Shown here piece after piece: positions 71-27,225 of a stretch of 30,240 bases of DNA. The stretch is from a virus: IMG/VR virus record IMGVR_UViG_3300005529_000599, positions 1 to 30,240 of that record. One strand, written 5' to 3'. The position numbers were made by a program, and so were the translations under genes. Numbering within the stretch: the first letter of the stretch is position 1; each line of letters opens with the position of its first letter. Below the pieces are notes generated by a model, which did no database searches, was not told the origin of the DNA, and saw only the letters and a list, made by a program, of their open reading frames with translations.

Positions 71-125
71 TGGAGCCGAGGCCCGGACTTGAACCGGGGA
101 CCTGCCGATTACGAATCGGCGGATG
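71..125 (-). other. 3' part of a tRNA-Thr(CGU) gene; putative phage attachment site
   Basis: Read on the minus strand, this holds a perfect tRNA anticodon arm (5-bp stem, loop TTCGTAA, anticodon CGU), a 5-nt variable loop, a perfect T-arm with loop TTCAAGT, the 3' acceptor strand CCTCGGC, discriminator T and an encoded CCA (complement at 71-73). The expected 5' acceptor strand GCCGAGG and any D-arm are absent from the bases to the right, so this is not a complete tRNA. Tyrosine-recombinase phages commonly integrate at the anticodon or T-arm of a tRNA gene and leave such a 3' fragment at one prophage end. With this orientation the phage lies to the right and bases 1-70 would be host flank. It could instead be the tRNA copy carried in a phage attP. 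Identity as a tRNA fragment is clear; the att role is inferred. Confidence 0.8.
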
Positions 126-1176: not shown

Positions 1177-1457
1177 TATTTCAGCCACTTCATCTGCGCG
1201 CACCGCGCCTTGGTACCCGCCAGCTTGAATCCCTTGTCATCAAGTTCCACCTTTACATAGTCGCCCTCAAACAGCTTTGGCGCCTCCCCTTCGCACACGA
1301 TGCGCAGATCCTCCGGCATGGTCATGAATCTCGCCTCGAAATGCCCCTGCGCGCGATCCGCGACTACCACCTTTACCGTGTATCCCGTGTCATGGCCACG
1401 GCACACTCCCGCAGCGGCAAACGCCAGCGCTATCCCGCCCATCCATGCGCGCCTCAT
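1176..1457 (-). CDS. exported protein of unknown function (93 aa)
   Basis: Residues 1-18 look like a signal peptide (MRRAWMGG, then a hydrophobic Ala-rich run). Cys19 follows Gly-Val, which is not a good lipobox, so lipoprotein status is doubtful. The rest is a small beta-rich sequence with two more cysteines (near 55 and 86). Its position directly upstream of the spanin-like gene, with a TAATG overlap, makes it a candidate partner in outer-membrane disruption (o-spanin role), but no o-spanin signature is visible. Its start is an ATGA overlap with the phosphatase gene. Function not recognised. Confidence 0.6.
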   Translation of the reverse strand: MRRAWMGGIALAFAAAGVCRGHDTGYTVKVVVADRAQGHFEARFMTMPEDLRIVCEGEAPKLFEGDYVKVELDDKGFKLAGTKARCAQMKWLK

Positions 1458-2089
1458 TTGTCGGCGGTTTCCTTGAATCCCTTAGGGTGTATTCTCTCGA
1501 GCTCCGCGCCGTCGGGCCTGACGTGCAGTAGCATCACGCTGCCTGGCGGAAAGTCGTCATCTAGACTGTCTAGCTCGTTCGCATTTTTCGGCTTCCCGGA
1601 AAAAATCTGTTCCGCGAACATCATGTGATGCCCGTGCACTACCAGCGCTCGCGGCGCGTCCGCATGCTTCGCGTTGTAGCGCTGCGCTTCCTTAAATTCC
1701 GGCTTGTTGCGCTCGATCGCGTTCTCAAATGATTCGCCGCCGGCCGGCGCGATCTCTGAATTCCGAATGTACTGCTTGCGGATGGGAATCGTTTCCGATT
1801 CCTTTTTTCCCGCCACGCGGTTGCCCGTATCCCACGTCCGCAGGTTGTAAGTCTTTTCAACCGGCACGCCCAATTTCTCGCCAAGCCAATCCGCGGTGCG
1901 GGCCGCGCGCGGCAAATCCGAGCTTCGCAGTTCGTTCACGTTCAGCTTCTTGAGCGTCTCGGCAATGCCTGGCCCCAACTCCTCGAGCTTTTCGGGATCC
2001 GGCGGTACGCGCAGCCAGCTCCTCGAGATCCCTTGCGCGTTCAGTTTTGTGGGAACGTGGCGCACCAGCGGGATGATCACCTCGTTCAT
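1454..2089 (-). CDS. histidine phosphatase superfamily protein
   Basis: The 211-residue protein carries the landmarks of the histidine phosphatase (phosphoglycerate mutase-like) clan: R10-H11 in LVRHVPT (the RHG position, with Val replacing Gly), SSDLPRAARTAD around 56-67 supplying the second Arg, GGES at 117-120 with the likely acid Glu119, and VVHGHH at 150-155 supplying the second catalytic His. Family members form a phospho-His intermediate and remove or transfer phosphate on small molecules or proteins. The substrate here cannot be read from sequence. No signal peptide is seen, so it should be cytoplasmic. It is coupled by ATGA overlaps to the transglycosylase upstream and the exported protein downstream, so it is expressed with the lysis genes. 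All catalytic positions appear present. Confidence 0.85.
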   Translation of the reverse strand: MNEVIIPLVRHVPTKLNAQGISRSWLRVPPDPEKLEELGPGIAETLKKLNVNELRSSDLPRAARTADWLGEKLGVPVEKTYNLRTWDTGNRVAGKKESETIPIRKQYIRNSEIAPAGGESFENAIERNKPEFKEAQRYNAKHADAPRALVVHGHHMMFAEQIFSGKPKNANELDSLDDDFPPGSVMLLHVRPDGAELERIHPKGFKETADK

Positions 2090-2541
2090 CGGTACTTTTC
2101 CTGGCGCGCCAGCACTTCCGCCGCGTAGGCGGGGTTACCGCCGCCGTTCCAGGCCAGCAGCGCCGCCGTCACGTCGCCCTTGGCGTTCTTTAAATCGCGG
2201 AATAGCCACTCACACCCGAGCGAGAGATTCGTTTCCGGATCGCACAATTGGGAAAGGAAGGCCAGGTCAGCTCCCAGCTCCCGCGCATCCTCGCCCATCA
2301 ACTGCATCAGTCCCCAGCTGAAGGCCCGCGCGTAGGCCTCCGTCGCGCCAATCTTGTTGTTGGTGTACATTCCGGCGATGTACTTCGCGAAAAATCGCGG
2401 CTCATAGCGGATCGCCCAGGGATTCCAGTTCGATTCCTGCTCCACCACCGCGCAGACCAGCTCCGGTGCCAGCTGGAATCGCGCGGCAACGGTTTTCGCC
2501 AGCACGATCAGCTTCTGCTTTGCGGGGCCGGCGTCAGCCAT
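2086..2541 (-). CDS. lytic transglycosylase (GH23/SLT-type), probable endolysin
   Basis: The 151 residues match the soluble-lytic-transglycosylase fold: VVEQESNWNPWA at 32-43 gives the catalytic Glu (E36 of the ES motif), SWGLMQLM at 75-82 is the usual GLMQ motif, and AWNGG with the following AYAAEVL (130-143) is the C-terminal substrate-binding part. Such enzymes cleave the MurNAc-GlcNAc bond with formation of 1,6-anhydroMurNAc. There is no signal peptide or SAR segment at the N-terminus, so export would need a holin. It is the likely cell-wall hydrolase for lysis, as a single-domain protein of typical phage length. The start overlaps the upstream TM gene by 8 nt. Confidence 0.9.
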   Translation of the reverse strand: MADAGPAKQKLIVLAKTVAARFQLAPELVCAVVEQESNWNPWAIRYEPRFFAKYIAGMYTNNKIGATEAYARAFSWGLMQLMGEDARELGADLAFLSQLCDPETNLSLGCEWLFRDLKNAKGDVTAALLAWNGGGNPAYAAEVLARQEKYR

Positions 2542-2785
2542 GACTGCGCTTCCTGGACTGAAAGTCCACGAACTGCACCCGCGGTGGGTCCTTGAGGTTG
2601 CGCCCTTGCTTGGCGGCGATTTCCCGCAGCTCCGCGTAAATGTGCGGCAGGTGATTTGTCGCCATGTCCCGCACGAAAACGCGCGTGATTTCGTCGTCGC
2701 GCATCTTGCGATGCAGCCAGCGATAAAACAGCGCGAGCTGCACCGCGAACGCCGCCGCGGCGCTTAACCATCCCAGGATTTCCAT
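2534..2785 (-). CDS. one-TM protein preceding the endolysin (83 aa)
   Basis: An N-terminal hydrophobic segment (about residues 4-23, LGWLSAAAAFAVQLALFYRW) is followed by a charged cytoplasmic-looking helix and a basic tail. AAGGG about 8 nt before the ATG at 2785 supports the start. The position directly upstream of the transglycosylase with an overlapping stop suggests a lysis role such as pinholin, holin or antiholin. A single TM with a long soluble tail could equally be a holin regulator. No family recognised. Its 5' end faces the plus-strand promoter at 2797-2825. Confidence 0.65.
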   Translation of the reverse strand: MEILGWLSAAAAFAVQLALFYRWLHRKMRDDEITRVFVRDMATNHLPHIYAELREIAAKQGRNLKDPPRVQFVDFQSRKRSHG

Positions 2786-2796
2786 GGATTCAGCCC

Positions 2797-2825
2797 TTGA
2801 CCGGTGATTTCCAATTCACTAGAAT
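2797..2825 (+). promoter_or_regulatory. sigma70-like promoter for the plus-strand gene
   Basis: TTGACC (2797-2802) and TAGAAT (2820-2825) each match the -35 and -10 consensus at five of six positions and are separated by exactly 17 bp. The expected start of transcription, 6-8 nt past the -10, falls at about 2832, the first base of the GTG codon of the following gene. Confidence 0.7.
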
Positions 2826-2831
2826 TCCCGC

Positions 2832-3083
2832 GTGCAGCCTTCCCCAGCGCAGCTTCTCTACTACCGCGTCAAGGAAACCACGCGCGCCGCCGTCCGCCAG
2901 ATCCTTCTGTACATTTTTGCCTGTTCCGTCCTCGTGGCCTGGTGGTCCGGCGCTCTGGACGACAAGTACTTCAATTCGCATCCGCTCTCTTTGACCGTCT
3001 TCACGGCGCTAGTTCTTGGAGCGCCTCTCGGCGTCCTGGCGTTCCTTGCGATCCGCTTGCTGCGCTTCGCCTTCCGCCGCTAG
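2832..3083 (+). CDS. two-TM membrane protein, the only plus-strand gene
   Basis: GTG-started 83-residue protein with two hydrophobic segments (about residues 22-41 and 53-75), separated by a polar loop (DDKYFNSHP) and ending in a basic tail RLLRFAFRR, as expected of a small inner-membrane protein. It lies against the direction of all surrounding genes. A good promoter places its transcript start on or next to the GTG, and I see no Shine-Dalgarno sequence, so the mRNA would be leaderless. Its TAG stop and that of the convergent ejection gene share the palindrome CTAG (3080-3083). The arrangement fits a separately controlled moron gene, possibly expressed in the lysogen. A superinfection-exclusion, holin or antiholin role is possible but not shown. 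No family recognised. Confidence 0.65.
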   Translation: MQPSPAQLLYYRVKETTRAAVRQILLYIFACSVLVAWWSGALDDKYFNSHPLSLTVFTALVLGAPLGVLAFLAIRLLRFAFRR

Positions 3084-5353
3084 CGGCCAACCTTGTTGAT
3101 TCGCTTCAGCGCCTGAATCAGTTTCAGAGCGTTGATCCCCGGCCCCTTCGGTTCCGGCAGGCCCTCCTCCTCGCCTGGTTCCCGCATCCGCGGCCCTGCT
3201 TCCCGCCGCAGATAGTCCATCGCGCTCCGCATCACCTTGGTGATTCTTCCCTTTTCAAGCGATTGCAGCGCCTGTTCCAACTGCTGCGGCGTGAATTCCG
3301 TCTCCTTGATCCACGGCAGTTGGTCTCGCAGGCTTCCCACGCTGTACCAGTGGCCGCCCATGCGTTCGCCATGCTTGAAATCCCTTCGCCCCGCGAGCGT
3401 GTGCTCTTCCGGCGTGGTTTCCGCAAAGTACCGTCCCGGCCGGTCCGCGGAACGCATGATATCCAGCGTCTGCCTGACCAGTAGACTTGCCTGCTCCGGC
3501 AGGATCGATTCCGCCACGCCCGGCAGTTGCGCGGCTGGGGTGGTGCGAACGCCTCCGCGCCCCATTGTTCCCAATCTCCGCTCCGGGGCGAATTCTGCTC
3601 CCGCGGCGGAGGGCCGTACTTCCTCGCGTGTGAATTGTTCCTCGGGAACCGGAGGAATCGATGTTTCCGGAGCCTCGCCGCTCGGTAGAAATCCGCGCAC
3701 CTCCGGGGCAGGCTTTACCGATTGCCGTTTGATTTCCCGTATAAATTTCGCCGGCGTGGGGCTGGGCTCTGGCAATGCCGCCCGCGGTGTAGCCCACCGC
3801 GCCGTCGGATCCCGAAACGTTCCGCTCGTATCCGGCTGTATTCCCGGTCCCAGCGGCGTTGCTCCTGGCCCCAGCAATGCCCGTGGCTGCGGCGGTCCTG
3901 GTGCTCGCGCGATCGGTTCAGCCGGGGCGAAGGCTTTCGGCCCGTGAAAACTTTGCTCGATCAAAAAATCCGGATTGCGCAGCGTCTTGAGCATGCGGCC
4001 CACGGCCAGAGCTCCGCCGGCTCTTGCCGCGCCTAGCGCGTTGCCGCTCAGCAAATCTCCCGCCGCATGCAGATACGAAAGGCCTTCCCACAGCCCGCCT
4101 TCCTTTGTGCGCGTGCGAATGGCGTGCTGCCTTGCGGCCGCGCGCTCCACGTCGCGCAGCGCTCCGTATTCGCGCTTCAGGTCCTTGACTCCCGCGCCGC
4201 TCAACTCTTCCACTTTTTTGTCGAGTAAGTTGCGCAGCACCCGCACTTCCGCCTGTGTGGCGCGTGTGTCCGCGGTGACCGGCGATTCTCCTGCCACCGG
4301 CTGCTTGTAAAAACCCTTTAAATCGTCGTTTGCATCGATGATTGCGTCTTCGATGTCGCGCAGGCTCATCGGTTTGTCATAAGCCGCCGAGCGCGCTTCG
4401 ATTCGCGCCGCTTGCTGCGGAAACTGCTCGCGCACGCGCTTCGAGATGCTATCGCGCATCGCTTTGCCGGCGGCGCTCGCGTCCACCTGTAATTGCTCCA
4501 CCGGGCCCAGCCGCTGCTCGATCGCGCCGATCACGGCCTGCTTTGCGCTTCTCACCGCTCCCAGGAGCTGCCCCGTGCTGCGGATCTCGCTAATCGGATT
4601 TCCGTCTAGGTCCCGCAGCGCGCCTGCCTGCCGCAATTGCTGTATCCGCGGCCCGGCAATCTGGATCGATTCCTGCGCACGGGGAATGTTCACGCCAGGC
4701 TGAATCGCCTGCGTGAAGGCCTTCGGCGCAGCGGGCACAATCGCGGCCGGCGGTTCGCCCTTGATCAGCGCGCGATTCCCGGCCCGCACGAGTCTGCCGG
4801 TCATCGTCGGTGCCGGAGAAGCAATCGCTCCACCCGTCATAGCCCCTCCACTGGCCGCTTCAGACCCCGCCAGGAAGGTCTTTTCCACCGCTTCTGGATT
4901 GCCACGCAGGGCTTCCGGCAAATTCCGCGCCAACTGCAGGCCGCCGTGCGCAACCATCGCCGGCCCCACAATTTCCGGCGCCGCAATTGCCGCCGCACCG
5001 ATCGCCGCTTCTTTTGGTTTCGGCTGCACCGCGCCTGCGGCGTAGCGCATTAAGCTCGAGAGCATCCCGTACCCGGTTCCTGGCGAATACGCGATTGCGC
5101 GCGGATCCGTGCGATACGGCTGCCCTTTTGCCGCGCGCGCCGTATTCTCCTCGTACGCCTCTTGCTGTTTCCGCGCAGCCCAATCCGCACCCTTCTCCAG
5201 TTCCTGACGGATTAGTCCCTCCGGCATCCAGTCCCGTACGCGCTGAAAAAACGATTTCTTTTCAGGCTGCGCCGGCTGCTGGCGCTCTTCGTCCCATTGC
5301 ACTTGTGGCGCGGCCTGCGACTGGTCCCAGCTGATTTGTGCTGCTGCGCTCAT
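3080..5353 (-). CDS. putative DNA-ejection (internal virion) protein, 757 aa
   Basis: A large Ala/Pro/Glu/Arg-rich protein with a charged N-terminal part, a hydrophobic Ala/Gly-rich stretch around residues 115-150 that could be membrane-active, long helical regions (about 200-420) and a Pro-rich linker region (about 470-620). Size, composition and place among three consecutive non-enzymatic genes resemble the ejection set of short-tailed phages (P22 gp7/gp20/gp16 or T7 gp14/15/16), which leave the capsid to form a channel across the envelope. There is no lysozyme or protease motif that I can see. It starts by ATGA overlap with the upstream gene and ends tail-to-tail with the plus-strand gene. 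The functional call rests on context. Confidence 0.65.
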   Translation of the reverse strand: MSAAAQISWDQSQAAPQVQWDEERQQPAQPEKKSFFQRVRDWMPEGLIRQELEKGADWAARKQQEAYEENTARAAKGQPYRTDPRAIAYSPGTGYGMLSSLMRYAAGAVQPKPKEAAIGAAAIAAPEIVGPAMVAHGGLQLARNLPEALRGNPEAVEKTFLAGSEAASGGAMTGGAIASPAPTMTGRLVRAGNRALIKGEPPAAIVPAAPKAFTQAIQPGVNIPRAQESIQIAGPRIQQLRQAGALRDLDGNPISEIRSTGQLLGAVRSAKQAVIGAIEQRLGPVEQLQVDASAAGKAMRDSISKRVREQFPQQAARIEARSAAYDKPMSLRDIEDAIIDANDDLKGFYKQPVAGESPVTADTRATQAEVRVLRNLLDKKVEELSGAGVKDLKREYGALRDVERAAARQHAIRTRTKEGGLWEGLSYLHAAGDLLSGNALGAARAGGALAVGRMLKTLRNPDFLIEQSFHGPKAFAPAEPIARAPGPPQPRALLGPGATPLGPGIQPDTSGTFRDPTARWATPRAALPEPSPTPAKFIREIKRQSVKPAPEVRGFLPSGEAPETSIPPVPEEQFTREEVRPSAAGAEFAPERRLGTMGRGGVRTTPAAQLPGVAESILPEQASLLVRQTLDIMRSADRPGRYFAETTPEEHTLAGRRDFKHGERMGGHWYSVGSLRDQLPWIKETEFTPQQLEQALQSLEKGRITKVMRSAMDYLRREAGPRMREPGEEEGLPEPKGPGINALKLIQALKRINKVGR

Positions 5354-7131
5354 TGCGCCGTAATCCTTCCATTCCGTACGACGACTTTAGTCCCATCCGG
5401 CAGCGTGCCCGTGTCTCCTTCCTTTCGTCCCGCCGGCGCCGGCCCCAGGTCGCGCTCCGGCTGCGGCGCCGCGGGGTTGCTTTGCGCTGCTCCCGCTACG
5501 TTGTCCTCATTCAACATCGCTTCCGCCGCCGATCCGCCAATCCTGCGAAGGATCTGCCGCGCTTCCGGGCTGAGAAAGCGGAAGTCCCGCGGCTTGCCCA
5601 AGCCAACGCGGTACTGATTGTCCAGAGCCTCCAGGCGCGAAGCCATCAGCTGGATCAACTGCTGGACGCCCGCGCGCAGCTGCTCCGGAGACTGCGCGGA
5701 ATTAATCTGCTGCCGCCATTCCTTGATTTCCTGGTCGGTTGCGCCGGTGCCTTTGAACACGGAAGCCATTTCGTTCACCACGGCGTTTGCGGCGTCGTTG
5801 AATTTCACGGTGCGCGGGTCTCCGGCTTGCGTCAGTCCCCAATTTGCGATGCGGTTCCACAGCTGGAACCCGCCGTTGCCCAGCTCCTCCGCAACGTGCT
5901 GCAACGTGTTCAGGTGCCCGATCGCCGTGTTCAAAGAGCGAACGTTCTGCGCGGACTTACCGCTCTGAAAATCTTTTCGCGCGGCCTGGCGCGCCGCATA
6001 CTGCGTCTGGTCGTACGTCGGGTCATACTGACGCGCGAGCGATAAGTACTTTTCGCGCGCGCCTCCCCTGTAACTCAGCGATTTCGGATCGATCTCGTAA
6101 TTCGCGATGCCCTTGACCAGCGCCGCATCCGCCGGAGTTAGATTCCCCAGCACCGCTTCTCCCGTTCCGCCCGCTGGGGACGCTGCAACGCCGTCTTTTA
6201 CCGGCCCGCGGATCGCGTTGTAGGTACTGCCGTCTGGCCGCTGCATTACGTTCACGCGCCGTCCTTGCGGGTCAATGAATTCGTCGATTTTTTTATCCAC
6301 TCGGTCCGGTTGCCCCGCTGCTTTTGCCCGGGCTTGCAACGCCGCACGTGCCTTGTCCCGATTCGCCGGCGTGTTCTCCAGATTGTTCGCGGCAAGGTAG
6401 TCCTCGAGCTCCTGCTCCTGCTCAGGAACTTTCGGCGCCGCCTTTGCCGCGGCATCGGCTTTGCGCGCCTCCGCTTCGCGCTCCGCAATCTGCGAAGCGG
6501 TATCCTCCAGCTTGGCCTCTTCCCCAATCGCCGCCATCTGCCGGTCGCTCGCCGCTTTCGCGTCCGCGAACTGCTGCGCCTTCCGCATTTCGATATTGCC
6601 TCGCGACCCCGGAATGCGCGCCTCCAGGCGCGGCGTAAGGATCTGGCCGGCAATGTCCAGCCACTTCTTCCACCCCTGCGGGCCTTCGCCCGGCTGCATC
6701 CGGTATTCCGCCGGCAGTGGAGCCTTCCCCAGCGCCTGCTCAAAACGCTCCGCAAACGACAATCGGCGCGGCTGTGATTGCACTGTTCCCTCAGCGCCAT
6801 TCGCAAAGCTCAACGGCACGGCGTGCGTTCCCGTGGGCACGGGCAGCGTTTCGTTTTGCACTTTCGCGCCCGCCGGCAAAAACTCCGTAGAAGGCTGGCG
6901 CACGCCCGTGCCGAGATCCGGCGCGGCCGGCATACTCGTATCCCGCACAAACGAGACGCGCGGCGCATTCGTCGCCGCCACACTAAGCCGGTAATCCAAC
7001 GAGTTCGGATCACGCCCCGTCCCGCTTGCGCGGATGAAGCTGATGCCCGCTTTCCGCGCCGCTTCTTCCGGGTCGATTCCTCTGCGCGCCAGCTCGTCGT
7101 CGATCGCTTCCAGGTCCAGCGCCATTTTCAC
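5350..7131 (-). CDS. putative DNA-ejection (internal virion) protein, 593 aa
   Basis: Mostly helical and rich in Ala, Gln, Arg and Glu. A charged coiled-coil-like tract spans about 180-290 (for example QIAEREAEARKADAAAKAA). A more conserved-looking part around 370-500 includes QNVRSLNTAIGHL and the FNDAANAVVNEMASVFKG region, a type of sequence that recurs in large phage virion proteins of unknown enzymatic role. The C-terminus ends in a short beta-hairpin-like piece (GTLPDGTKVVVRNGRITAQ). It lies between two other candidate ejection genes and is coupled by ATGA to the 757-residue protein. No catalytic motif is visible. An internal start 2 codons later (M3) is possible. Confidence 0.65.
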   Translation of the reverse strand: MKMALDLEAIDDELARRGIDPEEAARKAGISFIRASGTGRDPNSLDYRLSVAATNAPRVSFVRDTSMPAAPDLGTGVRQPSTEFLPAGAKVQNETLPVPTGTHAVPLSFANGAEGTVQSQPRRLSFAERFEQALGKAPLPAEYRMQPGEGPQGWKKWLDIAGQILTPRLEARIPGSRGNIEMRKAQQFADAKAASDRQMAAIGEEAKLEDTASQIAEREAEARKADAAAKAAPKVPEQEQELEDYLAANNLENTPANRDKARAALQARAKAAGQPDRVDKKIDEFIDPQGRRVNVMQRPDGSTYNAIRGPVKDGVAASPAGGTGEAVLGNLTPADAALVKGIANYEIDPKSLSYRGGAREKYLSLARQYDPTYDQTQYAARQAARKDFQSGKSAQNVRSLNTAIGHLNTLQHVAEELGNGGFQLWNRIANWGLTQAGDPRTVKFNDAANAVVNEMASVFKGTGATDQEIKEWRQQINSAQSPEQLRAGVQQLIQLMASRLEALDNQYRVGLGKPRDFRFLSPEARQILRRIGGSAAEAMLNEDNVAGAAQSNPAAPQPERDLGPAPAGRKEGDTGTLPDGTKVVVRNGRITAQ

Positions 7132-7137
7132 GCCTTC

Positions 7138-7347
7138 CTAAATCTGTAAATTTCGCAAAATACCGAACATCCGCGGATCCCGCTGCTGTCCGCTTTCGTC
7201 TATCCCCGCGAAAAACCCGGGCGTTCCTCCCGCCACCTGCTGCGGCGAAGCCACCACGCTCGACATTTGCCGCAGAGGGTTCTGGTTCAGCGGCAACGGC
7301 TTTACCGGCCCTGTCGGAAGCTGCAACTTTTCCAGCGCTGTGAACAT
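7138..7347 (-). CDS. small phage protein of unknown function (69 aa)
   Basis: Starting at the ATG at 7347, which has a GGGAGGG tract about 8 nt upstream, this encodes a Pro/Gln-rich low-complexity protein (LQLPTGPVKPLPLNQNP) without TM segments. A longer TTG start at 7371 would overlap the preceding gene's stop; I prefer the ATG for its purine-rich leader. It lies between candidate ejection proteins and may be a minor virion component. No family recognised. Confidence 0.5.
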   Translation of the reverse strand: MFTALEKLQLPTGPVKPLPLNQNPLRQMSSVVASPQQVAGGTPGFFAGIDESGQQRDPRMFGILRNLQI

Positions 7348-7363
7348 TGCTCCCACCCTCCCC

Positions 7364-7969
7364 TCATGCAAACATCGCGCCCGTCACGCCTTGCGCCAGT
7401 CCGCTGCCGAGCCCCTGGCTGAAGCTCTGCCAGAATCCGCCGGTATTCTTCGGCTCACGCGCCTTTTCCTGAACCTGCAAATAATCCACCGGCAAGCCCA
7501 GCGATCTCGCCAATAGATTCGTATCGATTCCGTACAGATTCCCCATGCCGGAAAGCGCCGCGAGTTGGTTCTTGCGGATAATGTCCGATTGCGTTTGCGC
7601 TTTCTCCCGCGCCAGTAAATCCCGGCCTTCTACTTCCCCCGCGGTATTTCCCGTGCGAGCCGCGCGGCGCGCCAGCGCATCTCCCGCCGACCCGAACGAA
7701 GCGGCCGCCGCTTCCATTTCCGGTCCGCTGGCCGCGCTGTCGTACAAGTTCTGATATTTGGACATCAGCGCCTGCTGCTGCTGCTGCCGCTGCGCTTCCA
7801 TCTGCGCGTTCATCGCGTCCTGTTTGGCGCGCTCCTGCGCGGCTGCGTCTGCGGTCCTTTTATCTTCGCCGCGCAAGAGCATGGCCGGGCCTGTGTATTC
7901 GTATTGCCCATCGTGAGACACCCGCTGCAAGGTCTCCCAATCAAAGACCGGATTCACCGTGATTTTCAT
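7364..7969 (-). CDS. putative internal virion/ejection protein (201 aa)
   Basis: The ATG at 7969 follows AAGGCG and gives a sensible N-terminus (MKITVNPVFDWETLQRV); a longer in-frame reading is Arg-rich and overlaps the GNAT-like gene, so it was rejected. Residues 45-80 are a Gln-rich helix (ERAKQDAMNAQMEAQRQQQQ). The middle is Ala-rich and helical, and the C-terminus is Gly-rich and amphipathic (GFWQSFSQGLGSGLAQGV). Length and composition fit the smallest member of an ejection-protein trio (P22 gp7 or T7 gp14 size class). The assignment is by context only. Confidence 0.6.
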   Translation of the reverse strand: MKITVNPVFDWETLQRVSHDGQYEYTGPAMLLRGEDKRTADAAAQERAKQDAMNAQMEAQRQQQQQALMSKYQNLYDSAASGPEMEAAAASFGSAGDALARRAARTGNTAGEVEGRDLLAREKAQTQSDIIRKNQLAALSGMGNLYGIDTNLLARSLGLPVDYLQVQEKAREPKNTGGFWQSFSQGLGSGLAQGVTGAMFA

Positions 7970-7979
7970 GGTTCGCCTT

Positions 7980-8408
7980 CTATGGCGCGGTTTTTCGCGT
8001 GTAGCAACGCCAGCGGCAGCTTTGCCAGCCAAGCATCTCCAGCTTGCGCTCGAATCCCCTCGGCCGGCGCTTCTCCGGCAGAGGCCTCCGCGGCGGCACT
8101 TCAGGCGGGATCCAGCAGTACACGTCCTCCAGCCCGCTGGCCCTGGCCCGCCGCCGCATCTCTTCATGCAGCAGCAGGAAATTGCTCCACCGCTTCGCCG
8201 GTGTTCCCGCTTGCGGATCGTGCAAGAAGTAAGCTTCCGCGGTCAGCCGCAGCAGCGCCGCCATGCGCACACCATCATCCTCCAGCACCAGCTTGCCGAG
8301 GAACGTTTCGTCTTCCACGTCCGGAAAGCCGTAATCGAATCCCTGCCGCGCGTGCATGCTTCGCAGCGCATCGAGATCCTCCGGCTTGTAGGCGCGCACC
8401 AGGCTCAC
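7980..8408 (-). CDS. GNAT-like acetyltransferase domain protein (142 aa)
   Basis: The start (LVRAYKPEDLDALRSMHARQGFD) matches the N-terminal strand-helix of GNAT acetyltransferases, and the C-terminal FERKLEMLGW resembles the usual final helix/strand region. The middle (LLLHEEMRRRARASGLEDVY) sits where the acetyl-CoA-binding helix and following strand would be, but I cannot see a clean R/Q-x-x-G-x-G/A loop, so catalytic activity is uncertain. It is coupled by ATGA overlap to the upstream virion gene. GNAT-like proteins occur among phage structural genes, where their targets are generally unknown. It might acetylate a host or phage protein or be a non-enzymatic relative. Confidence 0.6.
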   Translation of the reverse strand: MSLVRAYKPEDLDALRSMHARQGFDYGFPDVEDETFLGKLVLEDDGVRMAALLRLTAEAYFLHDPQAGTPAKRWSNFLLLHEEMRRRARASGLEDVYCWIPPEVPPRRPLPEKRRPRGFERKLEMLGWQSCRWRCYTRKTAP

Positions 8409-8947
8409 AGCGTCGAAACCTTCAGCCTTCCTCCGCCTCCCGTAAAATTATTGCCGCCAAATCCGCCTCCGCCTCCGCCAGAGCCGCTCCCGCCTCCCGG
8501 CGGAGCTGGGCCGGCGCTTCCTCCGCCGTTTACGGCGATGGGATTCGCTCCGCCATAGACAATCTTCTTGCTCCTCGGCGAATTGCGAAACTGGCTGTAC
8601 GCGCGAAAATACAGCGTCTGATTGCCCAGCTGAATATACTCGCTGAGAGACGGTCCAATGTCCTCCACTGTCGGGTTCGGAAACGCCGGGTTTGTGTCCC
8701 ATTCGATGAAGCGATGCAAGCCCAGATTGTCCTGCGCCTGACCCGCTGGATCGCTCAGCTTGACGCTGAAAAACCCGTTCGAAGCCGTCACCGTGATGCT
8801 CGCGATGTCCGGCGGCGCCGGAATCGGCGTACCGCTCGTCCCTGTCAGCTTGGCCATGTTTTGCAGCTCCTGCACGATCAGGACAAGCGACTCGTACAGG
8901 TACGGATCGCGATCCTTAATCGGCGCGAGCTGCGCGATGGTCAGCAT
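8405..8947 (-). CDS. minor virion protein with FnIII-like domain and Gly-rich tail
   Basis: Residues 1-35 form a helical N-terminus. Residues about 45-135 read as a fibronectin-III/Ig-like beta domain (for example ITVTASNGFFSVKLSDP, YIQLGNQTLYFRAYSQF). The last 45 residues are a Gly/Ser/Pro tract (GGSGSGGGGGGFGGNNF), a flexible linker typical of surface appendages. It lies between the 123-residue protein and the GNAT-like gene in the tail/connector region. An accessory tail or capsid-surface role is likely; exact function unknown. Confidence 0.6.
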   Translation of the reverse strand: MLTIAQLAPIKDRDPYLYESLVLIVQELQNMAKLTGTSGTPIPAPPDIASITVTASNGFFSVKLSDPAGQAQDNLGLHRFIEWDTNPAFPNPTVEDIGPSLSEYIQLGNQTLYFRAYSQFRNSPRSKKIVYGGANPIAVNGGGSAGPAPPGGGSGSGGGGGGFGGNNFTGGGGRLKVSTL

Positions 8948-8952
8948 CGCGG

Positions 8953-9324
8953 CTACTGCAGCTTGCGGAATGCAGCCGACCAGGCGACCTTATCCGCAGT
9001 CACCGAACCCGGATACGCGCCCGCGGCCAGTTCCGTGTTGAACGCCGTGACCACCTTGATTTTGCTGTTGTTCAGCGCGCTGCCCTGCACCGGGAAGTAC
9101 TGGTTCGCAATGTTGCCGTTCACGCTGCCCACCGCCAGCCCGTCCGGCCCGTACGCCGTCATCAGCGCCGGAATCAAGCCTTCAAAATTGGCGTCCGCGG
9201 TCGCCTGCGTGAAATCCAGCGTGTCTCCGCCCGTCGGATAGTTTCCCGAAAACGTGATGTAGCCCTGCGCATAGACGTGCTGCCCGGACATTTCAATTTT
9301 CGTGATGGTTACCGCAAGAGGCAT
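8953..9324 (-). CDS. small virion protein of unknown role (123 aa)
   Basis: A beta-rich soluble protein beginning MPLAVTITKIEMSGQHVYAQ, without cysteines or TM segments. AAAGGA about 8 nt before the ATG at 9324 supports the start. Position next to the head-tail adaptor suggests a structural or decoration protein. I do not recognise a family. Confidence 0.6.
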   Translation of the reverse strand: MPLAVTITKIEMSGQHVYAQGYITFSGNYPTGGDTLDFTQATADANFEGLIPALMTAYGPDGLAVGSVNGNIANQYFPVQGSALNNSKIKVVTAFNTELAAGAYPGSVTADKVAWSAAFRKLQ

Positions 9325-9358
9325 GTGTTTTTTCCTTTCCCTGAATAAATTCTAAACT

Positions 9359-10333
9359 CTAGAACGGGCTCCAGCCCGACCGGCTCGAGAACGGCCGCCG
9401 CCGCGTTCCGCTGCGCTGATTCTGCCGCGCCGCCCGCGCGATCAAATCCTCCAGGGCGTCCATTCCCGCCTGGTCCCACTTTTCCGAGAGCGGAGATCCG
9501 CGCGTCAGTCCGGCAACGCCCGCGGCAAAAAACGCGATCGCGCTTTGGGCGTTCCGGATGAGAATCGCGGACGTTCCGTCCACCAGGTCTGCATAAAACG
9601 CCCGGTAACGCAGCCGGATCTGCGTGTCTTGCGTCGCTCCAATAAAGTACAGTCCGTCTCCCCGCCATTCCCACACGCTCAGGATCTGGTCCTGCATCCG
9701 CGACGGCAGACCGCCCTTGTTGGTCATGTCCGTCATTTCCATGAATTCCTGCGCGGTTCCATTCGGCCGTTCCCACAGCTTCAAGGGAACAACCAGGTCC
9801 GTCGGCAGTTGCGCCGCGGTCGAGTCCGTGATGCTCACCGTCACTGAAGGATCCGGCGCGGCCACCGCCGGCACCACCAGATAGACGTCGTCCCGCACCG
9901 GCCCGGGCTGGCCCACGTTCTCGAGCGCGCGCTGGACCTTGCGATAGCCTTCATTCACGTACGGCAGCAGCACCGGGTCCGTCCACACCGCGCCTTGCCC
10001 CACGTTGCTCACTGTCCCCGAACTGGCGCTTTCATTCGCGCCGTTTTGCGCGTACGTGAACTGCGTCGCGCTGATGACGCTCGCCACCCTGAACGTGCCA
10101 TTGAACGTGTTCACGCCCACCGGCACGCCGGAGATTGTCGCCTGGTCCGGCGCCGCTCCGGCAATCAATCCATGCGGACCGATCGTCGTCACTGTCACCA
10201 CGTTCGCATTGCGCACGATCGCCGCAATCTGAATCGGCGCGCTGGCCAGCACGTTCGCGTCGTTCAGCAGCGCCCGCACTAACTGCATCACCCCGCGCGC
10301 CTGCGGATACGCCGAGCTGCCTACAACCGGCAT
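9359..10333 (-). CDS. head-tail adaptor, P22 gp4-like tail accessory factor
   Basis: The 324-residue protein opens with a helix (ARGVMQLVRALLNDANVL), continues around residues 115-145 with WTDPVLLPYVNEGYRKVQRA, then a beta-rich part, and later FIGATQDTQIRLRYRAF and a helical region (IRNAQSAIAFFAAGVAG). This order is familiar from gp4-type adaptors, which form a ring under the portal. Between residues about 42 and 110 is an extra beta-rich module (VTTIGPHGL, FNGTFRVASV, TQFTYAQNG) that also occurs twice in the large tail protein at 12573-15557. The C-terminus is Arg/Ser-rich. It abuts the upstream holin candidate without a gap. Confidence is good for adaptor role and moderate for the P22-type name. 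Confidence 0.7.
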   Translation of the reverse strand: MPVVGSSAYPQARGVMQLVRALLNDANVLASAPIQIAAIVRNANVVTVTTIGPHGLIAGAAPDQATISGVPVGVNTFNGTFRVASVISATQFTYAQNGANESASSGTVSNVGQGAVWTDPVLLPYVNEGYRKVQRALENVGQPGPVRDDVYLVVPAVAAPDPSVTVSITDSTAAQLPTDLVVPLKLWERPNGTAQEFMEMTDMTNKGGLPSRMQDQILSVWEWRGDGLYFIGATQDTQIRLRYRAFYADLVDGTSAILIRNAQSAIAFFAAGVAGLTRGSPLSEKWDQAGMDALEDLIARAARQNQRSGTRRRPFSSRSGWSPF

Positions 10334-10564
10334 TCATCCCTCCGGATTCGGCAACGGCGACTTCTGCAAATAGGCTGCCACGCCGATCACGGCGTTAATC
10401 AGCGCGGCGGCCGCCCCGATCCGCCAAGTATGCCCGAAGCCCGCCGTCAGATTGAAATGCGCCGGTTCGATCCCGATGGCCGCGAGTCCCGTCAAGACTC
10501 CGCCCGCCGCTCCGCTAATGGACGCCGCCAGCATCCCTCGCAGCCAGATTTCCCAGGATTTCAT
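10334..10564 (-). CDS. holin-like two-TM protein (76 aa)
   Basis: The ATG at 10564 has AAGGAG 7 nt upstream, which selects this start over an upstream one. There are two hydrophobic segments (about residues 9-30 and 46-66) with a short polar turn between and a charged C-terminal tail, which is class II holin topology. It sits between the spike and adaptor genes, well away from the transglycosylase at 2086. A holin would permeabilise the inner membrane for the endolysin. This is one of several small TM proteins in the window that could do so. The 170 bases upstream (10565-10734) hold no gene, only the palindrome CTGCACTGTGCAG at 10588-10600. Confidence 0.6.
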   Translation of the reverse strand: MKSWEIWLRGMLAASISGAAGGVLTGLAAIGIEPAHFNLTAGFGHTWRIGAAAALINAVIGVAAYLQKSPLPNPEG

Positions 10565-10734
10565 CGCTTCGCTCCTTGCTTCGTTCACTGCACTGTGCAG
10601 AAACTTCCTGGTTGTACCGTTCACCGTGACCCGCGCCTGTTGCGGAGCCTTGCATCTGCACCGTTCCCGAAGCCTAGGGGTTTTGGAACTAGCGCCATGT
10701 CAGTTACCCACGCATACAAAGCTGAAGGAATCTG

Positions 10735-12573
10735 TCATCGCACCACCCGCCAATTGACCGTCGCCGCCGTCGGCGTGATGGAACCTGCGGTAGGGTTGCA
10801 ATAGGCAAAGTTGACGTTGTTCGCCGTAACCCACTTTTGCAGGGTCAGCGTTCCTGGGTTCGCGCCTACTGCCGCGTTGAATGCCGTTTCGATGGTGTCC
10901 GTGGTTTGAACGCCCGAAGCCGATACAGTCACCGTTGCGCCGCACGCGCCCGAGGCAATCGCAGCCGTGGTCATGGTCGCTGTGCCGGAAGCAACGACGC
11001 GAGGCAGCGTCAAGAAAGAATCATTGTTATAGCTGGCCTTGAGCGCATGAGCCGTGGAATCGGCATAGAGAATGGCGTTGCCCGCTGACCCTGATGGCGC
11101 AGCTACTTCAGGAAACTGTACTTGCGGCGTTGCGAGAATGGATTGCACGGCCCCAGAAGATGCAACGGAGCGGTACTGCGAGGTTGTTGCGACGGTGCCT
11201 AGTGTGCTCAGGCCAATTAGGTCAACATCAAAAATGTTGTGTCCGCCGATGTCATTAAGGGCTGTTCCAGCCGGAGAGGTGTCGCAAGTCAGCCGCACAA
11301 GATTGTTACTGCCCGCAGTTTGGTAGCACACATTTCCAGTCGAGCTGGCATTGGCCATGCGGGCAATGATGATGTCATCCGCCTGGGGAGCAGTTTCCTG
11401 GAACATGATGGAATTGTTTTGCGTGCCGATGCGCTGTGCCGTGATGTCCCAATAGTTGCCCTCACAGCCGTTACAAAGCACTGCTTGGTCGGTCTGCCAT
11501 ACCAATATATTGATGAAGTGATTGAGCACGATATCCGCTGAGCTTGGGCCTGTGCTTTGTCCCCAGATTGCAGCGGAGCCGTTTCCGCAAGCAGTCGGGC
11601 AGTTTATGAATATGTTCTGAATGGTGTTGTCGAAGAATTGCGACGCATCGCTGCCAATCGCCTTGATGCCGTTCATGACAGCGCCAGCCGGAAACTGCAT
11701 CTGTAGGTCGCTCAGCATCGCCTCGTGTGTGTTGCTAAAGACAAAGCCTGCCGCTGCTGGCGCTGAAGTCCATTGCAATATGGTGCTTCCCCAGCCCGCG
11801 CCTCGGACATGCACAAGAGAAAAGATACTGACACTCGTGTTACCCATCGGAACGGGTACGCCATTGGTGGAAGGAATAAATACTTCCCCGCCACCGTTGC
11901 TGTTTGCCTGGTTTATCGCTGCTTGAATGCCTGCCGCTGTGCAAGCGTACTTGGGAGACGTAGGGGCTGGCGAAGCGCAGCCGTCCACTACAATCGTTCC
12001 GTTTACTCCGTAGGCGTTGACCTGATTCTGCCCCGCCGTAGCCGTGAGGTTGCCGGATAAGGTTGTAGGGCCGGAGAAGTTGCCGTTCAGTGCTCCGCCG
12101 CCATTCAGGTTGGCTGCGCCAGAGAACGTCTCTGTTCCGCTGTGCGTGTTGTTGCCGGTGAAGGTGTTATTGGCGCTGGCGGCAACGCAGGTCGTGCCTG
12201 GAATGCAGGAGATGACGAACACATACGGCCCCTGCGGAGAGGAAATGCCTACCCCGCTGACCGTGTAGGTATAGCTTCCCGGCGCGGCAAAGAATGCAGG
12301 CACGTTCCCCAGCCCGTCCGTTTTTAGCGGATTCGTGGTCTGATTGATGGGCTGCGTCAGTTGAATGTCGCTGTAGATCGTGGCGAGATTAGTGCATGGC
12401 AGCCCCGTGGCCGGGTAGTTGCACACCGTAATCGTCGCTCCGCCCTTCGGAGCTCCACTCGGTCCCAGCACCGGAGGCAGATTCCCTGGGCCGCCCTGCG
12501 CCCGCGCTGCTGGCGCGCTCACTATCGCGCATAAAAGCGCAAAGCCCGCGCCGATTTTCCAGATTCGATTCAT
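10735..12573 (-). CDS. putative tail spike with signal peptide and beta-helix (612 aa)
   Basis: The ATG at 12573 overlaps the upstream stop (TGATG) and opens directly with a signal-peptide-like leader (MNRIWKIGAGFALLCAIV, then ARAQ). Residues about 30-135 form a beta-sandwich-like module with paired cysteines (ITVCNYPATGLPCTN, PLKTDGLGN, FFAAPGSYTYTVSG) seen in Acidobacteriota proteins as far as I recall. Residues about 210-480 look like a pectate-lyase-type right-handed beta-helix (AGIQAAINQANSNGGGEVFI, then repeated short strands). A C-terminal beta domain ends in TPTAATVNWRVVR. This plan fits a receptor-binding spike, perhaps polysaccharide-degrading. The leader is odd for a virion protein. 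The base composition looks more AT-rich than neighbouring genes, consistent with exchange of the receptor-binding gene. Confidence 0.7.
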   Translation of the reverse strand: MNRIWKIGAGFALLCAIVSAPAARAQGGPGNLPPVLGPSGAPKGGATITVCNYPATGLPCTNLATIYSDIQLTQPINQTTNPLKTDGLGNVPAFFAAPGSYTYTVSGVGISSPQGPYVFVISCIPGTTCVAASANNTFTGNNTHSGTETFSGAANLNGGGALNGNFSGPTTLSGNLTATAGQNQVNAYGVNGTIVVDGCASPAPTSPKYACTAAGIQAAINQANSNGGGEVFIPSTNGVPVPMGNTSVSIFSLVHVRGAGWGSTILQWTSAPAAAGFVFSNTHEAMLSDLQMQFPAGAVMNGIKAIGSDASQFFDNTIQNIFINCPTACGNGSAAIWGQSTGPSSADIVLNHFINILVWQTDQAVLCNGCEGNYWDITAQRIGTQNNSIMFQETAPQADDIIIARMANASSTGNVCYQTAGSNNLVRLTCDTSPAGTALNDIGGHNIFDVDLIGLSTLGTVATTSQYRSVASSGAVQSILATPQVQFPEVAAPSGSAGNAILYADSTAHALKASYNNDSFLTLPRVVASGTATMTTAAIASGACGATVTVSASGVQTTDTIETAFNAAVGANPGTLTLQKWVTANNVNFAYCNPTAGSITPTAATVNWRVVR

Positions 12574-15557
12574 CAGTTCTGCCCTCGCACCGGCGCCCAC
12601 GGATCCGGCGTCACGCTCGGCGTCAGCTTCTGCAGCCGAAACCAGTTTCCCGGCACGGTCGCGTCGCTCGCCACCTTAAACGCCACGCGCTCTCCCGCCA
12701 CATTCAATTGCGCCTCCAGATCCCGCGCCGCGGGACTCGAAAGCGTCAGCAGCGGCAACAGCTGCGGAAACGCCGCGTTCAGCGGATACGCCGTCACGTT
12801 CAGCAACCCCGCGCCCTCGCAATACATCGTCAAGTACCGGAACACCATGCGATGCGCGTTCAGCCCCAGCGATTCCCGCGTCTCCGGCTGCGGCACAAAC
12901 GCCGTCGTGTAATACGCCGGTATCGCCAAGCCGTCATCCTTCAAATTGCCCGCGTCCAGCTGGTAGATTTTCCCCGTCGGGTTTCCGCCCGGCGCTTGAT
13001 TGCCGTAGGCGCCCGCGCCGAAGAACACCTGCTGCGTCCCGTCAAACCGCTCCACGATCGCTGCGGCGTTCGCCGAAATGGTCCACGGACTCCACTTCCG
13101 GCTCTTGTCCCGCACAATCTTCCGCCCGCGGTAGCTGATGGTCACGGCCGGTGAATCCGCGATCGCCTCCGCGCTGTCCGGCGTAATGTCCCGGTAATCC
13201 AGCTGCAAAATCGCGTTCGGAGTTGTCGCGGCTCCGAACGGCGCTCCAATCAGGATCCGCCGCTCCTGCGTATCCACCACCACCCAAATCGTGTGTCCGT
13301 ATTGCCAGTTGATCTGGTCCCAGGCCTTCGTCAGCCCGCTTGCGCTGTGCCCCACTTCCTGCGAAATCTTCAGCGGCTCCCCGCCGTTGGTGATGAACAG
13401 TCCCGCCCGGTCCGCGATCACCGCCCAATCGTTTCCCGCGGCTACTCCGCGCGCGCTCAGCGTCCCCACGCGCTGGGAAACCTGGCTCACGGTCCAGCTG
13501 CTCGGCTCCGTCGCGCCGTCATCCTGCGTCACGTACAGCGAATGTTCTTTCACCAGATACAGCCGCTCGCGCAGTTTGAACGCCGCGCGCAGCGCCTGGC
13601 CGTTGTTTTCCGCCACGTTCAAGAAGCCCGTGACGCCATCGTAGCTTTCCTGATCTTCCGCGTTGCTGACCCGCAACAGTGAAGGATTCACCGGCGTCGC
13701 CGTCGGAAACACCTCGACGTCGTCGATAAAGAATTTTCCGTTGTTCGTCGGCGTCCCATCCGCGTAGATCCGCAGGACCAGGTCGCTCGGGATGCTCGCC
13801 AGCGCGTTTGTCAGCACCGCCGTGTATTCCACATAGCCCGTCGTGGCCTGCGCGGCCGTCACCTGAATCCCCGCGGTGTTGATTCCTCCGCTCTGGCTGA
13901 ACAGGTGGATGTGCAGCGTGCCTTGCGCCAGCGTGTTGTTGCGGGAAATGCGCGCGCGCACCGAATATTGCGCGCCCGTCTGCAGCCGCGGCACGCCAAA
14001 ACTGTCCTGCACCGCAGATTGCGTGATCATTCCCCGCGTCGGCGTCGCGCCGTTGCCCACGATCGCCAGCGCGCAACCCCACACCACTTGTGTCTCTTCG
14101 TCCGTCTTTCCCGGCCCGAACGTCGGATCGGCCGTCCAGCCCAGCGGCAGATTGTCCACTGCGCCGGCGGTATTGCCGCTCACAAATCCGCCGTCGAAAT
14201 CCAGATTGAGCCAGTTGTTCTGCTTGTTGCGCTCGCCCCACCAGAAGAGCCGCTGGCTGTAATCGATGACTCCCGCGCACTCCCCCAGCACGATGCGGTT
14301 AAAGAGCTGCTGTCCGCTCGTCGCTCCGAGCAGGATCGCGTCCGTGAAGTCCACGGTCACGGTCGTCGTCGTGTTGTCGCTAATGACCGTGGCTCCGCTG
14401 AATAGCGTCGAAGCGCCCTGCGGAATCCAGTAGTAGCTCTCTCCTCCCGCCGCCGTGAACAGCAGGATGCGCGCCGTCACGTTCGGCGGCCCGACCGGAA
14501 TGCCGCTGATCACCGCGCGCCTTCCGCCCGCCGCGGTCCACGTTACCGCCGGGCTTGGCGCCGTGATGTAGCCCTGGCGCGTCTCAAACGCCACCGCCAG
14601 GCCATGCACGCCGGCGGCAATGCTCCCCGCGCTCCCCGCCGTTCCCCCGCTCGAGCTCGTCAGGCCTCCCGTTCCAGCGCGATACGTGAAATGCGTCGCA
14701 TCCGCCACGGTCAGCACCGTGAACGTCCCGTTGTAGCCCCCAACCGTCACGTTCGCCAGGATCACCAGCTGCCCGGCGGTCAGCCCGTGGGCGCTGCCCG
14801 TCGTCACGCTAGCCGTCGCCGAAGCGCTCGTCCCGAAGGCCGTTCCCGGTCCCAGACCGGAAGTTCCCACAATGATCGTGAAGTGCGTCGCGTCTATCAC
14901 GCTCTGCACCGTGAAATTGCCGTTGTAGCCCGCCGGCGTCACCCCGGAGATCGTCACCGTATCCCCGGCGCCCAGCCCATGCGCCGCGGAAGTCGTAATC
15001 GTCCCCAGGAAGCCCACTGCGCTCGCCGCGGAGATAGCCACCGCCGCGGGCTGCGAAATGGCCGTAACGCTCGCGCTTGTGCTTTCGTCCGCGACCGTGG
15101 GCGCCGCCCCGGGGCCGCTTTGGCTCACTCGGTCCAGATTCGTATCGTCAAACTGCTTCGGAATGTCTTGGCCCGTCTTTCCGTCGCCAAAGGCCAGGAA
15201 CTCCCGTCCGAAAAGCGTCGCCGAATTCGGCCACGCGCTTTGCAGCGCCGCCGCCGTCTGCACCAGGCTCAGCACGCCCTGAGCGCTTTCCTTCCACAGA
15301 TCGCCCAGGCTGCTGTACGCCAGCAAGCGCAGCGTCCCGTCCAGCTTGATGTACGTCCTCAGATAGTTGACCGTCGGATTGCCGTTCAGCGCCGCAAATA
15401 CCGCGGTCAGCCCCGGCCGCGTCCTCACGCTCGATTCGCTGAAGATCACGTCCTGGCAATCCGGCGAAACGCCCGGCGGCAGTTCGTTCGGCGCGATGTC
15501 GCACACCAGGCCGCCGATGATCTCGATCGTGGCGTCCGCTGTGCCGGCTACGCTCAT
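12573..15557 (-). CDS. large tail/DNA-stabilisation protein, gp10-like (994 aa)
   Basis: The N-terminus (IGGLVCDIAPNELPPGVSPD followed by SSVRTRPGLT) has the layout of short-tailed-phage proteins that close the portal and build the tail tube, such as P22 gp10 with its early arginine-x-phe/pro-pro-gly motif. It then has beta-propeller-like strands. Two copies of a beta-rich module lie at about 185-235 and 248-300 (each with HGL, GYNGNFTV or GYNGTFTV, DATHFT). A jelly-roll-like segment around 500-600 (FFIDDVEVFP) resembles a carbohydrate-binding domain. It starts by ATGA overlap with the 227-residue gene and ends in a TGATG with the spike gene, so the two tail proteins are coupled. No enzymatic motif seen. 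Confidence 0.65.
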   Translation of the reverse strand: MSVAGTADATIEIIGGLVCDIAPNELPPGVSPDCQDVIFSESSVRTRPGLTAVFAALNGNPTVNYLRTYIKLDGTLRLLAYSSLGDLWKESAQGVLSLVQTAAALQSAWPNSATLFGREFLAFGDGKTGQDIPKQFDDTNLDRVSQSGPGAAPTVADESTSASVTAISQPAAVAISAASAVGFLGTITTSAAHGLGAGDTVTISGVTPAGYNGNFTVQSVIDATHFTIIVGTSGLGPGTAFGTSASATASVTTGSAHGLTAGQLVILANVTVGGYNGTFTVLTVADATHFTYRAGTGGLTSSSGGTAGSAGSIAAGVHGLAVAFETRQGYITAPSPAVTWTAAGGRRAVISGIPVGPPNVTARILLFTAAGGESYYWIPQGASTLFSGATVISDNTTTTVTVDFTDAILLGATSGQQLFNRIVLGECAGVIDYSQRLFWWGERNKQNNWLNLDFDGGFVSGNTAGAVDNLPLGWTADPTFGPGKTDEETQVVWGCALAIVGNGATPTRGMITQSAVQDSFGVPRLQTGAQYSVRARISRNNTLAQGTLHIHLFSQSGGINTAGIQVTAAQATTGYVEYTAVLTNALASIPSDLVLRIYADGTPTNNGKFFIDDVEVFPTATPVNPSLLRVSNAEDQESYDGVTGFLNVAENNGQALRAAFKLRERLYLVKEHSLYVTQDDGATEPSSWTVSQVSQRVGTLSARGVAAGNDWAVIADRAGLFITNGGEPLKISQEVGHSASGLTKAWDQINWQYGHTIWVVVDTQERRILIGAPFGAATTPNAILQLDYRDITPDSAEAIADSPAVTISYRGRKIVRDKSRKWSPWTISANAAAIVERFDGTQQVFFGAGAYGNQAPGGNPTGKIYQLDAGNLKDDGLAIPAYYTTAFVPQPETRESLGLNAHRMVFRYLTMYCEGAGLLNVTAYPLNAAFPQLLPLLTLSSPAARDLEAQLNVAGERVAFKVASDATVPGNWFRLQKLTPSVTPDPWAPVRGQN

Positions 15558-16237
15558 TTCTCAGCGGGCTCCGTTCCTTCGCGTCTCCGTTCCTTCGGCT
15601 TCGCGGGCGCCAGCGCCTCGCGCAATTCCGGATAGAGCTTCGCAGCCTTTTCCGCGTCCAGGATCGCGCCGCAATGCCCGCACTTGGCAATTCCCGGCAG
15701 ATGCGGAATCCCGCAGCCCGGGCAGAGCTCCTGGGGCGCCGCGGAAGCCAGCCACGGCTCATTCGTCAGGTTCAGATAACGGGCGGCCCGCCGCTGCTCA
15801 TCGGTGATCCAATCCGTGCGACGCTCGCGCTCCCACTGGCCTTTCGCCACGCCGACGGCGTGCTCGTAGCGCCGCCGCAGGCTGGCGTGCGCTTCCTCCA
15901 GTTCGCCCCGCGACGGAGAGGCGCCGTTTTCAATCACGAAAACTCCCGCGAAGCTGTGCTCCCCAATGTCCGCGTTGCACTGCCGCGCCACGTCCCTGGC
16001 GATCTCCAGCGCGCTGATTTCCTGCACCGTGCTGTCCTCGCCCTTGTTCGCGCGGCTCGCGCGCCACTCCACCCGCGTAACCCGGTATTCCTCGCCCGGC
16101 TTGCGCCCTTCCACGATGATCACGCCGAAGTCGTAGTTCTTCTGGAACGTCTCCTCGCTGATGTTGCAAAGAAACGCTTCCGGACGGAATTCCAGAGCCG
16201 ACGCGATTCGCCGCGGCTCTCTTGCCGTAGTTGCCAT
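15554..16237 (-). CDS. zinc-ribbon head-region protein (227 aa)
   Basis: AAGGAG about 8 nt before the ATG at 16237 marks the start. The first 100 residues are mixed alpha/beta, followed by a charged helix (GELEEAHASLRRRYEHAVGV) and a zinc ribbon with C172-x2-C175 and C186-x2-C189 (LCPGCG and KCGHCG). The tail is basic. The ribbon probably stabilises the fold or binds nucleic acid or protein. It lies between the coat region and the gp10-like gene, and the ATGA overlap couples it to the latter. No named family recognised. Confidence 0.6.
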   Translation of the reverse strand: MATTAREPRRIASALEFRPEAFLCNISEETFQKNYDFGVIIVEGRKPGEEYRVTRVEWRASRANKGEDSTVQEISALEIARDVARQCNADIGEHSFAGVFVIENGASPSRGELEEAHASLRRRYEHAVGVAKGQWERERRTDWITDEQRRAARYLNLTNEPWLASAAPQELCPGCGIPHLPGIAKCGHCGAILDAEKAAKLYPELREALAPAKPKERRREGTEPAEK

Positions 16238-16260
16238 TTGTTTTTCTCCTTTTTGCCTGC

Positions 16261-26976: not shown

Positions 26977-27185
26977 GGCCGATAAATCTTCGTGAACCGC
27001 GCCCCCACGTACCATGCGATCGGCCCGCACACCAGGAGCGTCTTGTTCACCAGGCCAAGTTCGTGCCACCCGCGCATCAGCGCCAGGCCGAACAAGATGA
27101 TGCCAAAAACCTTGAGCACATAGTCCAGATACACCGTATTCGTCAGACGCTCCAAAAAACCCGGTTTCGTTTGCACCGCCGTCAT
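26973..27185 (-). CDS. holin-like two-TM protein between terS and terL (70 aa)
   Basis: Begins MTAVQTKPGFLERLTNTVYL and has two hydrophobic helices (about residues 20-37 and 45-61) with a short polar loop (RGWHELGLVNKT), ending in a basic tail (ARFTKIYRP). This is holin-like topology, but the function is unproven. The ATG lies in an ATGA overlap with the stop of the small chimeric ORF upstream. Its first 18 codons are duplicated exactly 182 nt upstream (see the repeats), so the original gene probably began directly after terS. Confidence 0.6.
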   Translation of the reverse strand: MTAVQTKPGFLERLTNTVYLDYVLKVFGIILFGLALMRGWHELGLVNKTLLVCGPIAWYVGARFTKIYRP

Positions 27186-27225
27186 GCTTCCTCCTTCCTC
27201 CGCGCGGCTCGCTGTGTCACCGCGC
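27132..27225 (-). repeat. 94-bp exact direct repeat, copy 1
   Basis: Identical to 27314-27407 at an offset of 182 bp. It contains the end of a terS-like frame (AVTQRAARRKEEA plus stop), the ATGA junction and the first 18 codons of the holin-like gene. Similarity runs further (to about 27263) in a diverged form matched to 27434-27472. Confidence 0.95.

Follow-up and report, generated by a model that had tools for sequence, protein, structure and literature searches.

The lambda gene bor, classed as a lysogenic-conversion gene, faces against the late genes and lies directly beyond the lysis genes. In phage P22, pid, a gene of the late region, encodes a small protein of 86 aa, runs opposite to its neighbours and occupies a site where relatives carry nothing or another insert; it has a Shine-Dalgarno sequence and a 3' terminator, its product acts on the host dgo operon, and its expression was seen in the phage carrier state, as opposed to strict lysogeny (PMC3573128). 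STMMW_20121 of the Salmonella prophage ST64B is antisense to the prophage lytic genes and is transcribed in the lysogen from its own promoter, as seen by RNA-seq (PMC7067206). HK97 gp15 and P22 SieA, the latter with three transmembrane (TM) segments and about 162 aa, are small prophage-encoded inner-membrane proteins (predicted or proven) that are expressed in the lysogen (PMC10883804).

The window analysed here, which is the whole stretch of 30,240 nucleotides, holds a gene that can be set beside each of these. All its other well-supported genes lie on the minus strand, and this one runs against them, between the lysis genes and a large late gene with which it converges:

71 to 119, minus strand: 3' half of a tRNA-Thr(CGT), the probable attachment core, matching att copies in L203 and G032.
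2086 to 2541, minus strand: SLT-domain endolysin (Pfam SLT, 1.3e-14; PHROG endolysin, 3.5e-11).
2534 to 2785, minus strand: protein with one TM segment (1-TM protein), its gene overlapping that of the endolysin; holin-like by position and conserved in relatives.
2797 to 2802, plus strand: −35 hexamer TTGACC (5/6 to consensus), its TTGAC core retained in both homologues.
2820 to 2825, plus strand: −10 hexamer TAGAAT (5/6 to consensus), with 12 nt from its first T to the start codon.
2832 to 3083, plus strand: gene for an 83-aa protein with two TM segments (the two-TM gene), GTG start and TAG stop; homologues in L083 and L002, and the sole conserved frame.
3080 to 3083, on either strand: CTAG common to the stops of the two-TM gene and the convergent gene, read in the sequence.
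3080 to 5353, minus strand: convergent late gene for a 757-aa protein, with homologues in G001 and G032 and weaker ones in G047, G029 and G033.
4482 to 4712 in L083 (record G032), minus strand: homologue of the two-TM gene, opposite to the late genes, with two predicted TM segments.
5109 to 5345 in L002 (record G001), minus strand: homologue of the two-TM gene, likewise opposite to the late genes and with two predicted TM segments.

The feature as originally marked, 2797-3083, starts at the −35 hexamer; the gene proper is 2832-3083, and its stop codon is 3081-3083. It is like pid in its small product, its late-region position, its orientation and the variable occupancy of its site, and differs in its control sequences. 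With bor it shares orientation and place next to the lysis genes, whereas Bor is an outer-membrane lipoprotein and the present protein a predicted two-TM inner-membrane hairpin. STMMW_20121 offers a parallel for an antisense gene with its own promoter, except that its host is Salmonella and that expression, observed there, is here predicted.

Codon usage favours the antisense frame 2790-2981 (score 17.9) over the two-TM frame (1.2, a low value), so that independent evidence is needed. Homologues were found in L083, by a scan with the endolysin that reached eight relatives, and in L002, by a scan with the 757-aa protein that reached one. Among 14,111 open frames, the best non-self match of the window protein is the one in L083 (phmmer E 6e-4), followed by that in L002 (E 0.6), and a profile made from the window and L002 proteins recovers L083 at E 2e-5 from the same frames. 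When the three regions are compared in all six frames, their mutual similarity is confined to the two-TM frame (E 1e-7 to 1e-3 in this small set), and no antisense frame at the locus is conserved across the three phages; a minus-strand frame conserved in its stead, which the initial annotation had named as the outcome speaking against the gene, is not what was found. The overlap with the stop of the convergent gene is also kept in all three, as CTAG in L083 (4482-4485) and CTAA in L002 (5109-5112). Judged by these comparisons, the frame is a genuine gene. Since the homologues are only about 30% identical, and the terminases of the three phages are a mere 38-42% identical, the sequences indicate that the gene is old or mobile, and not a recent copy. 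Its GC content does not deviate within the window (0.619 against 0.625), and that of the homologues is lower, at 0.53 and 0.52.

Read from the sequence, the order upstream is TTGACC, a 17-nt spacer, TAGAAT, six nucleotides (TCCCGC) and the GTG at 2832, with no Shine-Dalgarno sequence upstream of that codon. When both strands of the 30 kb window were scanned for sigma-70-type sites matching 10 of 12 positions with a spacer of 16-18 nt, this promoter (2797-2825) was the only one. Shuffled windows hold 0.8 sites of this class, and 0.07 located 5-8 nt before the start of a frame of at least 40 aa; 4 of 60 shuffles contain one at leaderless distance from such a frame. Taken alone, without the homologues, the promoter in the window is only suggestive. 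It is held to be more than chance because both homologues share the promoter-to-start geometry: TTGACA-17-AAAACT-6-ATG in L083 and TTGACT-18-TAGACT-7-ATG in L002, so that TTGAC[A/C/T], a spacer of 17 or 18 nt, a −10 element and a start codon 6 or 7 nt further on recur in all three members. As background, a site matching at least 9 of 12 positions lies 5-8 nt upstream of 27 of 39,928 start codons (7e-4; frames of at least 50 aa, all loci), and the two homologues are the sole small two-TM frames on the opposite strand with a promoter of at least 9/12 in the loci of the relatives. The −10 of L083 is weak (3/6 to consensus) and overlaps a terminator-like hairpin, a strong stem followed by nine T at 4713-4742 (plus, the late strand). 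This hairpin separates the two-TM gene from the 1-TM/endolysin pair and is perhaps an operator, or a terminator ahead of the lysis genes. Palindromes also lie between −35 and start, with perfect 8-bp arms in L083 and as an imperfect GTGA...TCAC in the window; they could be operators, but their sequence is not conserved and they were set aside.

The first T of the −10 stands 12-13 nt before the start codon in all three family members, and a TANNNT at this distance has been reported for bacterial leaderless genes, which occurred in all three Acidobacteria genomes surveyed, with a mean of 13.3% (PMC3160421). In host MAG sequence, genes with an upstream gap of at least 80 bp show an excess of good −10 hexamers at 5-8 nt upstream of their starts (11, compared with 31 in 40 other positions, p 0.001), and so do such genes in related phages (9 against 17, p 3e-4); genes with a gap below 80 bp show no such enrichment. 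Leaderless genes are recognised by a TANNNT-like −10 some 12 nt upstream of the start codon together with the lack of a Shine-Dalgarno sequence, and the mRNA of the two-TM gene is, on these sequence grounds, probably leaderless. The initial annotation had described a two-TM gene among left-facing genes, with TTGACC-17 bp-TAGAAT putting the transcript start at its GTG, no Shine-Dalgarno sequence, a probable leaderless mRNA and a CTAG-shared stop; each of these points agrees with the sequence, and the promoter geometry, the −10 distance and the stop overlap recur in both homologues.

The window protein has two hydrophobic segments, and two membrane helices are predicted in each of the three homologues. 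The net charges of the two tails are +3/+4, +4/+2 and +1/+3, with near-neutral loops (−1, 0 and −1), and an AF2 model places helices at 5-38 and 52-82 with low confidence (pLDDT 69). The topology that the initial annotation had suggested predicting comes out as an N-in/C-in helical hairpin whose basic tails both lie in the cytoplasm. A BFVD structure search with the model gave no significant match, and from the AF2 and BFVD results nothing is concluded beyond the hairpin.

The surroundings of the gene are conserved in part. The window and L083 share the order of a 757-aa gene, the reversed two-TM gene, the 1-TM protein, the SLT endolysin and a histidine-phosphatase-like gene; this last one, of the histidine-phosphatase superfamily (1454-2089, minus strand, directly after the endolysin), is kept in L083 and is an unusual partner for lysis genes. 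The initial annotation had proposed looking for the gene at other positions in related phages, and L002 supplies such a case: there it is found on the opposite flank of the 757 homologue, with a 439-aa gene as its second neighbour and again with overlapping stops. The two-TM gene adjoins a 757-family gene in all three phages, the side differing, and the 757-aa protein is, by position, probably virion-associated. The pair of 1-TM protein and endolysin is conserved in L083, L084, L089, L091, L093, L094 and L097, and in five of these (L084, L091, L093, L094 and L097) it is present without the two-TM gene, which is missing from most related phages. Strict co-occurrence with the 757-aa family is likewise ruled out, as the 757-family genes of G047 and G033 have no two-TM neighbour.

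The window is a fragment and holds neither an integrase nor a recognised repressor. The tRNA half at 71-119, about 2.7 kb from the two-TM gene at the lysis end, matches two att copies in L203, with 97.9% identity along 48 nt and 95.9% along 49 nt, and one of these copies sits inside a complete tRNA-Thr(CGT). The att where the ends of G032 join is 84% identical to the tRNA half along 45 nt; ARAGORN and Rfam made no call at 71-119 because the tRNA is partial. L203 carries a 14.3-kb element (1914-16302; about 99913-114301 of contig C4 in G047) flanked by two copies of tRNA-Thr(CGT), one partial and one complete; it contains a 757-family gene and adjoins an integrase. By its sequence this element is an integrated relative; shorter than a full phage, it is perhaps a remnant or satellite. 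G032 has a 97-bp direct repeat at its ends, with a tRNA core of this kind inside it and an integrase next to it, and because of this repeat the record is probably circular and complete. A second short tyrosine-recombinase-like frame (about 180 aa) lies near its terminase at 27113-27598, and G009 has one of similar length near its own terminase. Given the att core, the integrated relative in L203 and the att and integrase of G032, the window phage is very probably temperate. As to the host, 35 of the 36 terminase relatives in GTDB contigs lie in Acidobacteriota records, some of them inside contigs of 300-600 kb.

Its own promoter, its orientation, its patchy presence, its variable position and the temperate phage make an accessory gene the best explanation, and we consider it probable that this is a moron-type prophage gene of a temperate Acidobacteriota phage, expressed in the lysogen; this degree of confidence covers moron identity and lysogenic expression, with any exclusion function outside it. 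The initial annotation had called the gene a prophage moron, with superinfection exclusion or immunity as possible roles, which is a reasonable guess. Much of what defines a moron is present, namely a promoter of its own (a conserved TTGAC-17/18-TANNNT-type site in three of three members), presence in some relatives only and at different sites, as the move in L002 illustrates, and a phage that is very probably temperate, but no clear intrinsic terminator, which the classical definitions call for, was found 3' of the gene in the window. The word is therefore used here in the wider sense of an accessory gene expressed from the prophage. In the lysogen, with the late genes silent, the host's vegetative polymerase would transcribe the gene, and ribosomes would begin directly at the 5' GTG of the leaderless mRNA. 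The product would then enter the inner membrane as a hairpin and might guard the lysogen from related incoming phages, by blocking either the entry of their DNA or the virion proteins of the entry channel. Superinfection exclusion is the commonest known role of such proteins, with HK97 gp15 and P22 SieA as analogues (PMC10883804), and by this analogy protection of the lysogen against related phages is the most likely function, which we put forward tentatively. Exclusion proteins of the HK97 gp15 and P22 SieA type showed no sequence similarity to the two-TM protein in the libraries searched.

The main rival to a prophage accessory gene is a role in lysis, with the protein as a class II-like holin or antiholin (two TM segments, N-in/C-in) that times or guards lysis from its own promoter. 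Class II holins and their inhibitors have a size and topology like those predicted here, and in the window and L083 the gene adjoins the 1-TM/endolysin pair. The gene is, however, turned against the late genes, and its promoter resembles a vegetative one more than a late one; five relatives keep the lysis pair without it, the L002 gene stands away from the lysis genes (the contig ends soon after), and no holin family was matched. We regard this role as unlikely. Another view ties the gene to its other neighbour, the two-TM protein being an immunity partner that would block the 757-aa protein, if incoming virions eject this into the membrane; it would be a form of superinfection exclusion with a defined target. 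Adjacency to the 757 family in every phage that has the gene, despite the differing side, speaks for such a link, whereas G047 and G033 do without the gene, and three cases cannot part a functional link from shared descent; we hold this partnership to be doubtful. We would give as little credence to the wider proposal built on it, that leaderless two-TM exclusion proteins expressed in the lysogen form a new family in Acidobacteriota phages and are directed against phages with a 757-type protein, as matched pairs of virion protein and immunity protein.

The promoter could also serve chiefly to make an antisense RNA directed at the 3' end of the late mRNA for the 757-aa protein, the small protein being secondary. 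With no evident terminator, a transcript from 2832 would indeed continue into the antisense of the 757-aa gene, and an antisense RNA of the Salmonella prophage BTP1 mediates superinfection exclusion (PMC7067206). Yet the two-TM frame has been kept at about 30% identity in three diverged phages, and in L002 the target would be another gene, so that the protein is conserved and the target is not; the antisense reading is improbable. That the frame arose by chance is more improbable still. It is short, its codon score is low, and the shuffles at times put a comparable promoter before some start, but conservation contradicts this: diverged phages carry homologous frames at corresponding places, and these retain the promoter geometry and the overlapping stops.

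Accessory genes of prophages are difficult to recognise in DNA sequence by itself. The signature of this one, a leaderless promoter set against the late operon together with a small membrane protein, holds across diverged phages of the Acidobacteriota, a major group in soil whose phages have, to our knowledge, hardly been studied, and it defines a protein family that can now be tested for protection of the lysogen. Scans of the two-TM protein against Pfam, PHROG, NCBIfam and PADLOC gave nothing above the cut-off and no defence family; weak hits to DUF2955, LapA, phrog_22150 and PspM fell below it and were treated as chance. A profile search of 39 virus records returned no match besides the two known homologues, and further members were found neither by tblastn in phages, nor in scans of GTDB and viral contigs, nor in 33 related host genomes, nor among the few candidates scored per genome in 399 genomes of the class, a search that was not exhaustive. 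The family found has three members and, by sequence, is new to all libraries searched, while the kind of locus is already known from pid, STMMW_20121 and bor. An 82-aa two-TM frame in L089 (485-733, minus strand) was excluded from this count, being not homologous and having a weak promoter. Like the two-TM gene it is turned against the late genes, and it immediately precedes the 1-TM/endolysin pair; GACAAT lies 7 nt upstream of its ATG, and the frame may be another accessory gene that occupies this site.
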